From Hydractinia symbiolongicarpus (Eukaryota; Cnidaria; Hydrozoa; Anthoathecata; Hydractiniidae), in NCBI RefSeq assembly GCF_029227915.1, contig NC_079887.1:23495650-23559649 (forward strand): a DNA stretch of 64,000 nucleotides, in the 5' to 3' direction. The translations under genes were made by a program, and so were the position numbers. The notes under the pieces were generated by a model, which was not told the origin of the DNA, did no database searches, and was given only the letters and a program-made list of their open reading frames with translations. Each line of letters starts with the position of its first letter. The first letter of the stretch is position 1. Shown here piece after piece: positions 25,855 through 62,567 of this stretch.

Positions 25855-25864
25855 CTATAAATAG
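25855..25864 (+). promoter_or_regulatory. TATA box of A1
   Basis: CTATAAATAG, identical to the A2 box. The upstream ATG at 25870 is so close to the box that it is probably not transcribed. Confidence 0.6.
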
Positions 25865-26034
25865 TTTGTATGCATCGACATACAAGATCTTTTTTAAAAG
25901 GAAAACGGAAGCGAAAAGATCGCTGGAATTATTTGGAAGAGCAAGTCTTTGGTTGCTGTTACACGATTTTTATTGATTGTTCTATTTTTTTGGTTACATA
26001 CACTTACTTAGTACTTGGATATTGCTTCTTTTTG

Positions 26035-26346
26035 ATGAACGATATGCATTTGAGGACGATCATTTTATGCATGTTCGTGTCCCACTGTGTTGGCAACAAG
26101 CTTCCCAAAATATGGCTTACTAAAAACTCAACACCTTCAACGACGACAGCCCATGAAGTTGAATCTTATCGCGCAACTGCAACAGATCATACAGAACCAG
26201 CATCTAACAAAGCCAAGATGGTTCACTGTGACGAACATTGTAAACTTCGACAGAAAATTGCTAAAGAATTTAAGCAGACTACGTCACTTCCTGCATGGCA
26301 TTACGCAACGTTTGATTGGAGAAAGAGAAACAAAAACCGGAACTAA
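26035..26346 (+). CDS. A1: secreted peptide precursor, A branch of the CxxxC/PxWH family
   Basis: 103 codons, intronless. MNDMHLRT followed by a hydrophobic stretch (IILCMFVSHCVG) is a signal peptide. A Thr/Ser-rich spacer then leads to KMVHCDEHCKLRQKIAKEF, TTSLPAWHY and a basic tail (WRKRNKNRN). The mature chain has two cysteines three residues apart, so one tiny disulphide loop is expected. I chose this start because MNDMHLRT is conserved in A1, A2 and A3, whereas the upstream in-frame extension (from 25870) is not conserved and is closed by stops in A3. A polyadenylation signal AATAAA lies at about 26473. The C-terminal module is shared with the B genes. Function unknown; a signalling, antimicrobial or venom peptide are all possible. 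Confidence 0.8.
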   Translation: MNDMHLRTIILCMFVSHCVGNKLPKIWLTKNSTPSTTTAHEVESYRATATDHTEPASNKAKMVHCDEHCKLRQKIAKEFKQTTSLPAWHYATFDWRKRNKNRN

Positions 26347-26889
26347 AAAATTTCTTAGAGGCATGTGAAAATGCTCTCTATTTTTTTTAACAGAACTGCT
26401 GGCTGTTCTTAAAATTTCCTTTTGTTTTTATGTTGAAATATTCTTAGTGCTTTTCTTTATTCTTTGTATGGTAATAAAGCCTTTTTTTATTAAAAAATGT
26501 CTTATCTATAAAACAACAGTAGAGTTGAGTATAGTAGAGAATTTATGCAAGTTTGGCGAAAAACTTAACTTTCTACAATGTGAAAAAATCGCAGAAACTT
26601 TCCTGAATTTTATTACCTTCGTGAATTATATCATCACCCATAGTTCCTCTACTTGAAGTATACTGCACGTTATACTTGGCAAAAAGTAATACATGGAAAC
26701 ACACATGCAAGACACAAAAAAGCACCTGGAAGGAGTGCTACGTTTAAGATAGCTTACTTCATACCTATAAGAAGATTGTATTCTGTTCTTATGTTTTTTA
26801 GAAATCCAGTCTTGATTTGCACTTACCATGTTCTCAAATTTTAAAATTAGACCTGTGTTCTTATAAAATTGTTCTTGGAAGTCATAATG
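26347..26889. repeat. left arm of inverted duplication, 3' flank of A1
   Basis: The flank (for example AGTGCTACGTTTAAGATAGC at about 26734) is repeated inverted at about 30530-31000, the 3' flank of A2. The homology stops at the Tigger-like insertion and resumes beyond it. Confidence 0.7.
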
Positions 26890-26891
26890 TA

Positions 26892-27496
26892 CGGTGGAGT
26901 CACGATATACCGAACCCCCGATATAGCGAACATCTTGACATAACGAACCAAAGATCATCCCCCTTGAATTTAGGCCTAAGAAACTCTTATAAATACTTTC
27001 TGTATAACGAACCCTCGATATAGTGAACATCTTGATATAGCGAACCAACTTTTTCGTTTCCTGAACTCAACCTTGATAGAACAAACTCAAGGCACTAAAT
27101 AAAACAAAAACTCGGCAATATGTTCAAAGCTTTTTGCATCATCGGAAGCGTGTCACAAACAAAACAGTACGTCATCCAAGTCGAAAAGTTTAAATCAGTA
27201 GAGCATGCAGTGGAACAAAAATAAATTTCAACTTTCAGATATCATCTTGTCAATAACATTTTCATCAGGTATATTCTCTTATAGATAATGCTTACGCAAG
27301 AAAACACATGTTAGAACCACTAAGAGGTAATTTGCTAGGTTTATGGAGACATTGCATCGTGTAATGTAAACAAAAATTTACAAATGCTGATTCAGATTGG
27401 TTATGTTTTTGGAATGCATTGTATTATAGTCAGGGTTAAAATTTTCAATTTTTTTATTTGGTTACCATACGTGGTTCGTTATGCAGAGAGTCTGGG
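26892..27496. mobile_element. pogo/Tigger-like MITE, 605 bp, TA target duplication
   Basis: The left end CGGTGGAGTCACGATATACC and the right end (revcomp CCCAGACTCTCTGCATAACG) resemble the CGATATARCGAAC ends of pogo/Tigger elements. TA flanks both ends (26890-26891, 27497-27498). The opposite palindrome arm (about 30475-30530) lacks the insert and so shows a natural empty site. GATATAGCGAAC motifs repeat inside. No transposase. Confidence 0.7.
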
Positions 27497-60579: not shown

Positions 60580-61093
60580 ACAAGATGTCTCGACAAAAAA
60601 GTTATGTCAACGTCTTAAAAGTACCTCTCCTTCGATATTCTTGTGCTATCTGAGATAATTACACAATAGTGTTGTGACAACAAAAGGAAACGTTTGTGGA
60701 TGCTTAAGATGATAAAATAATCAAATCAAATCAGATATACATATTACATCATATAATTACTGAGACATCACAAAAGAATGTCATTAACGTTGTGAAAAGT
60801 TCATGAAGGTCAACTATAAGGAACCGTTGTGGAAAAATCTCCCGCTGATTTTTGACAAGATTACACTGCGTTATCGTTATAACAATACCGACGCGTGCTG
60901 CAGAATTATCTTGTGTTTATAGTACATGTTCTTTTTTGCAAAAATAGAAAAACAACAAGCCTTTATCTATGAAGCAGCATCGAATACCTCTTTATTTGTC
61001 AATCCATGTGCAAAATGCCGTATTGTTGTAGCAGATATATAAGGACGATACGTGGAGTAAATTCAGTCACTCTGAGAATGACACAAAGACATC
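60580..61093 (+). promoter_or_regulatory. conserved upstream region of B4
   Basis: TATA-like GATATATAAGGACGATACG at about 61033-61051. AAAATCTCCCGCTGATTTTT, GATTACACTGCGTTATCG and TTATGTCAACGTC (about 60602) all match the B1 upstream region, inverted. The match ends where the Harbinger element begins on the B1 side. Confidence 0.65.
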
Positions 61094-61378
61094 ATGACTA
61101 ATTTGAAACACTTTTTACTCGTGGCCATTGGTTTTTTTGTGCTTATCGACATGGCAACATGCAGACCATCAAAACATCGCATATCAACGTCTAGGAATTT
61201 GCGTTTAATTGCTGGAAAGTTAATGAAGTCAATCATACGTGCAGAAGAATCTCTGAGAAATGCAGAACAAAAAAACACGAAGGAGCCAACACCGGATTTA
61301 AAAGTTTGTGATGAGAAATGTCAACTTTGTATAGAATTGATGAAGCAACAGGCCGAAACAACAGAGACACCTGCTTGA
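61094..61378 (+). CDS. B4: B-branch peptide gene with premature stop at the conserved Trp
   Basis: 94 codons to the stop. Signal peptide MTNLKHFLLVAIGFFVLIDM, RPSKHRISTSRNLRLIAGK, then CDEKCQLCIELMKQQ and a TGA (61376-61378) in place of the Trp codon of P-A-W-H. The bases after it still read HDI. The K-R-R-K cluster of the other B copies is replaced by KEPTPDLK, and a third cysteine replaces the Arg of QLR. It is closest to B1. Probably decaying. Confidence 0.6.
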   Translation: MTNLKHFLLVAIGFFVLIDMATCRPSKHRISTSRNLRLIAGKLMKSIIRAEESLRNAEQKNTKEPTPDLKVCDEKCQLCIELMKQQAETTETPA

Positions 61379-61601
61379 CATGATATAAAGTGACCTCGAA
61401 AACCATTAACGAAGTATAAATAACAAGTTATACCCAAAATAATAAAGCCAGATCAACAAAAAAGAGAAGATATTTTTAAATATTTTTGTAGTTACTAAAA
61501 TAACTTTTTAACATGCATCGCATTAAAACACTACAACTACACTACAACATTTCGTTTATTTTCATCATTAAATTATATCCGCGAATCGGTATTTTAATAT
61601 A
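61379..61601 (+). other. 3' flank of B4
   Basis: It has AATAAA at about 61440 and sequence matching the B2 3' flank as far as AAATTATATCCGCGAATC. Confidence 0.5.
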
Positions 61602-62310
61602 CTAGTCGTTAGCCCGTGGAAAATCCACGTGTTCACCCGTCCTTTTTATACCGCATTGCGTGCTTCTCGCTATTGCGCAGCTAAGCTAACATTTTGCGTG
61701 ACAGACAGACAGACAGACAGACAGACAGACAGACAGACAGACAGACAGACAGACAGACAGACAGACAGACAGACAGACAGACAGACAGACAGACAGACAG
61801 ACAGACAGACAGACAGACAGACAGACAGACAGACAGACAGACAGACAGACAGACAGACAGACAGACAGACAGACAGACAGACAGACAGACAGACAGACAG
61901 ACAGACAGACAGACAGACAGACAGACAGACAGACAGACAGACAGACAGACAGACAGACAGACAGACAGACAGACAGACAGACAGACAGACAGACAGACAG
62001 ACAGACAGACAGACAGACAGACAGACAGACAGACAGACAGACAGACAGACAGACAGACAGACAGACAGACAGACAGACAGACAGACAGACAGACAGACAG
62101 ACAGACAGACAGACAGACAGACAGACAGACAGACAGACAGACAGACAGACAGACAGACAGACAGACAGACAGACAGACAGACAGACAGACAGACAGACAG
62201 ACAGACAGACAGACAGACAGACAGACAGACAGACAGACAGACAGACAGACAGACAGACAGACAGACAGACAGACAGACAGACAGACAGACAGAAAGATTT
62301 TGTCTAACAT
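61602..62310 (-). mobile_element. Helitron-like repeat with expanded microsatellite
   Basis: On the minus strand the 3' part is canonical: CACGCAAAATGTTAGCTTAG, then the hairpin CGTGGATTTTCCACG and GGCTAACGACTAG before T. This is the same body as 55996-56154 in the opposite orientation. The internal GTCT tract is hugely expanded. The 5' end is diverged and approximate. Confidence 0.7.
61701..62293. repeat. (CAGA)n microsatellite, about 148 uninterrupted units
   Basis: 593 bp of ACAG/CAGA tetranucleotide without a visible interruption. It gives long spurious frames in several readings (DRQT and CLSV repeats), which are not genes. Confidence 0.95.
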
Positions 62311-62360
62311 TTCCAATATTTAATTAGCTCGTTTTTTTTTCAATTTTCTTGGAACTTTCC

Positions 62361-62567
62361 ATGATTCCCTCTTTTGATATACTGTTTTCCATCTCATATC
62401 ATATCCATCATCAAAAAGTCGACTATCATCATCTAGAAACTGGAAAAGTCAATTCTAAGTTCTGCAGCATGTAGGGAAGTTTCAAAAATTGTTACGAGAA
62501 ATGTTACTTGCGCTCAGAATTGAGGAAACATTTGGGTGATTCAACAGATCGGCCTCTTTGGCATTGA
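62361..62567 (+). pseudogene. B6psi: B-branch fragment
   Basis: TCCATCATCAAAAAGTCG and RLSSSRN correspond to the start of the mature B region. An internal deletion removes LRLIAxKL, and a TAG at 62472 interrupts the frame. The C-terminal module survives as CYEKCYLRSELRKHL and STDRPLWH followed by a stop. It is the most diverged copy, missing the DIDLR tail. Confidence 0.7.

Follow-up and report, generated by a model that had tools for sequence, protein, structure and literature searches.

A family of small precursor genes lies on contig NC_079887.1 of the hydrozoan Hydractinia symbiolongicarpus (assembly GCF_029227915.1), in a 64,000-nucleotide stretch of the forward strand (positions 23,495,650 to 23,559,649) that is here called the window. 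Ten copies, which fall into two branches termed A and B, occur between 25.6 and 62.6 kilobases (kb) of the window, a span of about 36.6 kb. The precursors feature open frames, a hydrophobic N-terminus, spacers that are unrelated in the two branches, and a shared C-terminal module under purifying selection. It is very probable, judging from the codon comparisons, that these copies form a coding family under selection. Our favoured but still tentative reading is that they would encode lineage-restricted secreted prepropeptides, the C-terminal peptide of which engages a binding partner in the extracellular space.

The shared C-terminal module

The module comprises 25 residues of the form C-x3-C-x-L-R-x9-T-T-x2-P-x-W-H and is found at the C-terminal end of the precursors. 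In the five intact copies it is encoded, at this full length each time, by 26227–26301 on the plus strand (A1, CDEHC...PAWH), 31073–31147 on the minus strand (A3), 44802–44876 on the minus strand (B1, CDEKC...PAWH), 52026–52100 on the plus strand (B2, CNVKC...PSWH) and 57531–57605 on the minus strand (B3, CDEKC...PSWH). A previous reading made from the sequence alone had described such a module with about 7 residues between L-R and T-T; the shared module is indeed present, but each of the five intact copies has 9 residues there. Its residues are also less strict than had been proposed. C-D-E gives way to C-N-V-K-C in B2 and to C-Y-E-Q-C in P0004, one of two relatives found outside the window, and T-T is replaced by R-T in the other relative, P0003, and by S-T in P0004.

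The likeness between the branches sits in the part of the protein that holds the module. When A1 and A3 were compared with B1, B2 and B3, all six pairs of full proteins scored above all 1000 shuffles, and trimming 24 residues from the N-terminus left this outcome unchanged for all six. When only the spacers were compared, 2 to 76 per cent of shuffles did as well, both values at the bottom of the range (2 and 3 per cent) coming from comparisons with B2, and likeness in this part is not clear. At the DNA level, blastn found no in-register match between the A and B modules of the five intact copies, and at the protein level 10 to 12 of the 25 residues are kept. Between 9 and 11 conserved residues in each of the six pairs have synonymous codons, and 4 to 6 of these are coded differently in the two branches.

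A codon model of the 25 module codons in the five intact copies gives a cross-branch ratio of nonsynonymous to synonymous substitution (omega, or dN/dS) of 0.26, with twice the log-likelihood difference (2dlnL) at 11.43 and p 0.0007. The tree was fixed (A1 and A3, then B1 with B2 and B3) and kappa was set to 2; under kappa 1 to 3 or an alternative B topology, omega is 0.23 to 0.27 (p 0.0003 to 0.0012). Because the tree and kappa are fixed and the A-to-B branch is long (2.4), the value of 0.26 is only rough, and it is somewhat favoured by the fact that the copies had been recognised through the module. Inclusion of the two shortened copies, A2 and B4, over 23 codons ending before the Trp codon, gives 0.45 (p 0.021). 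The dN/dS check that the sequence-only reading had suggested for the module thus returns a value that is not near 1 across the branches. Its proposal that the spacers are unrelated and that the module is the likely functional part is supported by this cross-branch analysis together with the shuffle result on the spacers.

Predicted processing and mode of action

Secretion, cutting, disulfide formation and binding are the steps that we infer for these precursors. The intact copies have an N-terminal hydrophobic stretch, where both AlphaFold2 models predict a helix, and this putative signal peptide would be removed. In branch B, a convertase would cut after a conserved dibasic RR to produce a 35-residue peptide. 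B1, B2, B3 and P0003, the four intact proteins of B type, all have the RR upstream of the module, and the piece that follows is 35 residues long in each of them, despite spacers of 50 or 59 residues. Past the presumed signal peptide, each of the five intact copies contains two cysteines (Cys23 of B1 being counted as the last signal residue); these form the C-x3-C and may bond to each other where a helix begins. Contact with a protein partner, for example a receptor, would then fall to the L-R, T-T and P-x-W-H residues. A C-terminal amidation signal is absent, as no Gly follows the module in any of the seven unbroken proteins (A1, A3, B1, B2, B3, P0003 and P0004).

In branch B, the module plus tail has a net charge of 0 to +3, and shuffles reach the amphipathicity of its helix in 38 to 95 per cent of cases. 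Being near neutral and not amphipathic, this part favours binding over lysis, and from its sequence we lean, with reserve, towards a module that serves as a binding ligand rather than as a membrane-lytic peptide. An amphipathic module helix was also considered; it was not borne out in B1, B2, B3, P0003 or P0004, and was only suggestive in A1 and A3 (0.07 and 0.06).

A number of points weigh against the favoured reading. Branch A offers no dibasic site ahead of the module for a convertase to cut. It has a basic tail at its end, which together with the module carries a strong positive charge (net +6 to +8). The pairing of the two cysteines is assumed, and both AlphaFold2 models are of low confidence: P0003 is modelled as one long helix (mean pLDDT 69, pTM 0.28), and A3 as a module helix, a break at T-T-P-L and a second helix (mean pLDDT 61, pTM 0.24). 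The TATA-like and poly(A)-like motifs in the flanks, described below, are common in A+T-rich DNA and were scored without a shuffle control. Taken within one branch, module omega misses significance (0.42, p 0.11 in B; 0.45, p 0.21 in A), and the B1-B4 pair gives 12 (p 0.035). YN00, a second counting method, puts B1-B4 above 1. By NG86, dN in the module equals or exceeds dS in four of nine pairs (B1-B2, B1-B4, B2-B4 and A3-A2), of which B1-B2 is an intact pair. In favour of a coding family, simulated drift never kept the three chosen B frames open together more often than once in 400 runs, whichever of nine settings was used; this result is weaker than it looks, because the three frames were picked for being open. 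Three or more open frames among all six B copies arise by drift with a chance of 0.0003 to 0.06, and A1 and A3 are both open with a chance of 0.02 to 0.14 across four settings.

Some of these figures would also suit a decaying family without present function, which we consider very unlikely. Five of the ten copies are broken, three of six B copies could remain open by drift at the upper chance just given, and differences are spread almost evenly over the codon positions. Whole-frame omega can be read either way, as it counts for selection too: it is 0.58 (p 0.021) for B1-B2-B3 and 0.47 (p 0.056) for A1-A3. For B1 versus the shortened B4 it is 1.10. By NG86, whole-frame dN is below dS in nine of nine pairs (ratio 0.46 to 0.95). 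Decay is, however, at odds with the low omega of the module, with upstream blocks that are conserved between copies, and with the intact relatives outside the window.

The main rival, next after the binding reading, is that these are host-defence peptides directed at microbes, in the manner of the families restricted to Hydra. The active part would then be the cationic amphipathic stretch in the B spacer or the cationic A tail, and the module would stabilise or target it. The sequences make this possible, if on the unlikely side. The B spacer has a net charge of +4 to +13 and an amphipathic stretch (moment 0.38 to 0.49, without a shuffle control), the A module and tail are cationic as noted above, and the paralogues are clustered, as are the Hydra antimicrobial families (PMC10945409). 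The strongest selection signal nevertheless falls on the module, which in B is near neutral and lacks amphipathicity; positive charge is placed in different parts of the precursor in A and B; and a single cysteine pair is present instead of a complex cysteine pattern.

A disulfide from residue i to i+4 within one helical chain would be strained. Since AlphaFold2 predicts a module helix in both branches, this strain counts in favour of disulfide-linked helix dimers (A-A, B-B or A-B), which would be joined by two inter-chain bonds and would resemble a two-chain alpha-hairpinin with partners supplied by B-then-A gene pairs. Each mature chain would contain two cysteines four residues apart, and tandem B and A copies that share a strand occur in three places. 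Yet one member is broken in all three of these pairs, which argues that linked pairing is not maintained, and the models are of low confidence and of single chains only. Such dimers seem improbable to us. Still more doubtful is a novel 25-residue scaffold, with one C-x3-C where a helix begins and P-x-W-H where it ends, in which A and B chains from B-then-A gene pairs would join via C-x3-C into a disulfide-linked helical ligand for an unknown receptor. Plant alpha-hairpinins likewise have C-x3-C on helices, and their wheat genes lack introns, but each of these peptides has two C-x3-C motifs that join two helices (PMC7191063). Here, one motif per chain is found in A1, A3, B1, B2, B3, P0003 and P0004.

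Database searches and comparison with known peptides

A profile of seven copies, searched against 5.8 billion proteins, gave 1031 candidates, among which P0003 and P0004 are relatives. P0003 is of B type (112 residues, 80 per cent identity to B3, E 5.4e-38) and P0004 is of A type (95 residues, E 4.0e-27). A profile of nine members returned the same two relatives among 316 candidates. They may be other copies from the same or a near species. A single-sequence search with B1 found no relative; as P0003 and B1 have many five-residue words in common, this search was probably incomplete, and absence elsewhere is therefore weak evidence. Among viral contigs, 52 stretches fitted a pattern and none was a relative.

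No match at the family cut-off was found for the nine members in Pfam or NCBIfam, and the best match among solved structures (PDB) had an E value of 0.11. Weak matches, at best E 0.0053 in NCBIfam and 0.0094 in Pfam, had bit scores under the cut-offs and were set aside. Similarity to ribosomal proteins, at best E 0.13 for L39 and 0.11 for L28, was put down to composition. Five module strings had no match in literature text, which says little since sequences are often placed in figures and supplements. In the sources searched, then, the earlier description of the family as undescribed holds, no named peptide family is matched with confidence, and the module scaffold is covered by no searched family model or solved structure.

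These searches also bear on whether the peptides are venom or stinging-cell components, which we judge to be quite unlikely. They are small, multicopy, cysteine-bearing and probably secreted, as such components would be. No named family was matched, however, in Pfam, NCBIfam or the solved structures (a dedicated venom library was not searched), and a single disulfide is unusual for a venom scaffold.

Calcitonin and calcitonin gene-related peptide (CGRP) hormones have a small disulfide ring, then a helix, and a C-terminal Pro-aromatic region, which is a likeness to the module, although the ring size differs. The present peptides also lack the amidation Gly, and no model of this kind was matched in Pfam-A, where six other families are listed for the nine members up to E 1.

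The family would belong to a known kind, that of clustered, fast-evolving, taxonomically restricted secreted peptides. In Hydra such families are established, and further uncharacterised clusters are reported to exist (PMC10945409). The Hydra arminins and periculins are small secreted precursors with many clustered paralogues, one lineage and quick turnover (PMC10945409); the present family is likewise clustered, with ten copies. As to restriction to one lineage, the profile searches gave two relatives among 5.8 billion proteins, which is weak evidence, since the single-sequence search missed P0003. Most Hydra antimicrobial peptides are described there as having bipartite charge and a complex cysteine pattern (PMC10945409), unlike the single C-x3-C and the near-neutral B module seen here, where only two cysteines follow the presumed signal. 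Arminins and periculins were set apart by description only, not by sequence.

The cyclic cnidarian neuropeptides CXXXMCWFRamide and GPPCRWGCamide also have a short disulfide loop and a secreted precursor, but these are short, amidated peptides, and in cases described one precursor yields several related ones (PMC6909153, PMC8638164). Here there is one 25-residue module per precursor, and Gly plus a basic site after the peptide is absent from all seven unbroken proteins. The Hydra LW-peptide is non-amidated and taxon-restricted, and its activity has been shown; it was compared by description only and appears to differ in that cysteine or disulfide is never mentioned in the main text of the source (PMC12440616).

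Copies of the family and their flanks

The same ten copies emerge from open reading frame lists, from a six-frame motif scan, from tblastn and from DNA profiles, so that all the loci and relics noted in the sequence-only reading are present. Five are fully open (A1, A3, B1, B2 and B3), two are shortened by TGA (A2 and B4) and three are relics. With A- and B-unit profiles, nhmmer recovered all ten in the true window plus two weak strays (E 0.054 at 45.8 kb and E 0.77 at 23.0 kb), which were not counted as copies; the reversed window gave no match up to E 1. The genes had been called intronless. The coding part is indeed a single unbroken frame in each intact copy, but the 5′ untranslated region may hold an intron.

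In branch A, A1 (26035–26346, plus strand) encodes an intact precursor of 103 residues from a common MND start, with TATAAA at 25856 and AATAAA at 26473. A longer A1 frame of 158 residues (ATG 25870) starts beside the TATA-like box; translation therefore probably does not begin at its first ATG, and the shared MND start was taken. A3 (31028–31339, minus strand), also intact, is an inverted duplicate of A1, with TATAAA at 31492 and AATAAA at 30915. In A2 (54919–55182, plus strand), TGA replaces the Trp of P-x-W-H, and the upstream region lacks a TATA-like match. A4psi (about 56587–56986, minus strand) is a deletion relic in four collinear pieces.

In branch B, the intact precursors are B1 (44784–45095, minus strand, 103 residues, AATAAA at 44741), B2 (51780–52118, plus strand, 112 residues, TATATA at 51716 and AATAAA at 52176) and B3 (57513–57851, minus strand, 112 residues, ATTATAAA at 57473). 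B4 (61094–61378, plus strand) has TGA in place of the Trp of P-x-W-H, has lost the RR site, and carries one module R changed to Cys. B5psi (about 31888–32240, minus strand) is a relic interrupted by stops and lies upstream of A3 in the same orientation, and B6psi (about 62464–62605, plus strand) is a short relic with a module-like stretch and a weak extension to 62383 (E 0.057).

The TGAs of A2 and B4 fall at the identical Trp codon, apparently through independent events. This codon holds 6 to 9 per cent of the single-step nonsense weight per copy, and both TGAs would fall there by chance in about 0.5 per cent of cases if each copy had one nonsense change, a coincidence noticed post hoc. Selenocysteine at these positions was considered and set aside: plain decay fits both, as A2 has no TATA-like match and B4 has no RR site.

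In the aligned flanks, A1 and A3 have a TATA-like box some 150 to 180 bases upstream of the start; in B1 (where it takes only the form AATAAAAAG), B2 and B4 the distance is 58 to 64 bases. The upstream region of B3 contains a TATA variant outside the pattern used. AATAAA is found no more than 130 bases past the stop in six of seven copies, with a variant in B3. A promoter common to A and B was not supported, since two short upstream matches (E 0.26) and 26 bases in the A+T-rich 3′ part (E 0.012) were read as chance.

Duplication history and the rest of the window

Copies would multiply through inverted duplication, partly as B-then-A pairs, and be lost via nonsense and deletion. Self-comparison of the window reveals an inverted duplication of A1 and A3 (25769–26874 versus 31579–30533, plus additional segments), and segments within 44.6 to 52.7 kb (B1, B2) that are reverse-collinear with 57.0 to 61.6 kb (B3, B4). 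The three B-then-A pairs are B5psi/A3, B2/A2 and B3/A4psi, and no B copy was found upstream of A1 by self-comparison or DNA profiles.

From −300 to −100 (block 51480–51680), the B2 upstream region matches B1 and B4 at 88.5 and 90 per cent but B3 at 78 per cent; in the coding part, by contrast, its nearest relative is B3 (81 per cent). Such a mosaic is suggestive of gene conversion. Similarity is higher in the upstream block than in the coding part for B1-B2 (p 0.0007), B2-B4 (p 0.00002) and B1-B4 (p 0.0005), but not for B1-B3 (p 0.83), B3-B4 (p 0.6) or B2-B3 (p 0.43).

Five regions, around B1, B4, B2, A3 and A1, were searched for inverted repeats that could mark the ends of a mobile element. 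Imperfect, mostly A+T-rich pairs flank B1 (two) and B2 (two), and one B1 pair (16 nucleotides, 81 per cent) lies at the edges of the stretch common to B1 and B2. None was found around A1 or around B4, the closest relative of B1, and the pair in the A3 region does not frame A3. The repeats were accordingly read as chance and the family was not taken as mobile-element cargo, though a mobile origin is conceivable.

The window has 34.7 per cent G+C and no N. Among 14 of its frames, Pfam identifies 14-3-3 exons, an AKAP-17A-like gene, a beta-helix gene and two transposase matches. The beta-helix frame (33248–38128, minus strand, 1626 residues, Beta_helix E 3.5e-15) contains many N-N-T-A-x-x-G-G-G-type repeats, about 73 to 79 per cent alike as DNA, and a hydrophobic C-terminal part that is seemingly membrane-spanning. 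An open transposase frame lies between B1 and B2 (46965–48038, minus strand, DDE_Tnp_4 E 1.1e-24), and a TNP-like RNase H transposase piece lies at 23395–23694 on the plus strand (E 2e-13). An Rfam histone 3′ untranslated region stem-loop is matched at 24715–24760 on the plus strand (34.4 bits, cut-off 34); no histone was found among the 14 frames scanned. A nearly pure GACA tetranucleotide array of about 600 bases occupies 61700–62297, and a repeat beside it (61591–61734) recurs at 56019–56166 (86 per cent) and in part at 41818–41879 (83 per cent).

Implications

Within the cluster, the nearest relative of a paralogue can be one copy by its promoter block and another by its coding part. Provided that the peptides are produced and do bind a partner, they would represent a signalling or defence scaffold outside the searched family models and solved structures. 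The cluster would then also provide a natural experiment, in which one module is kept in two branches with different propieces and two copies end immediately ahead of the Trp.

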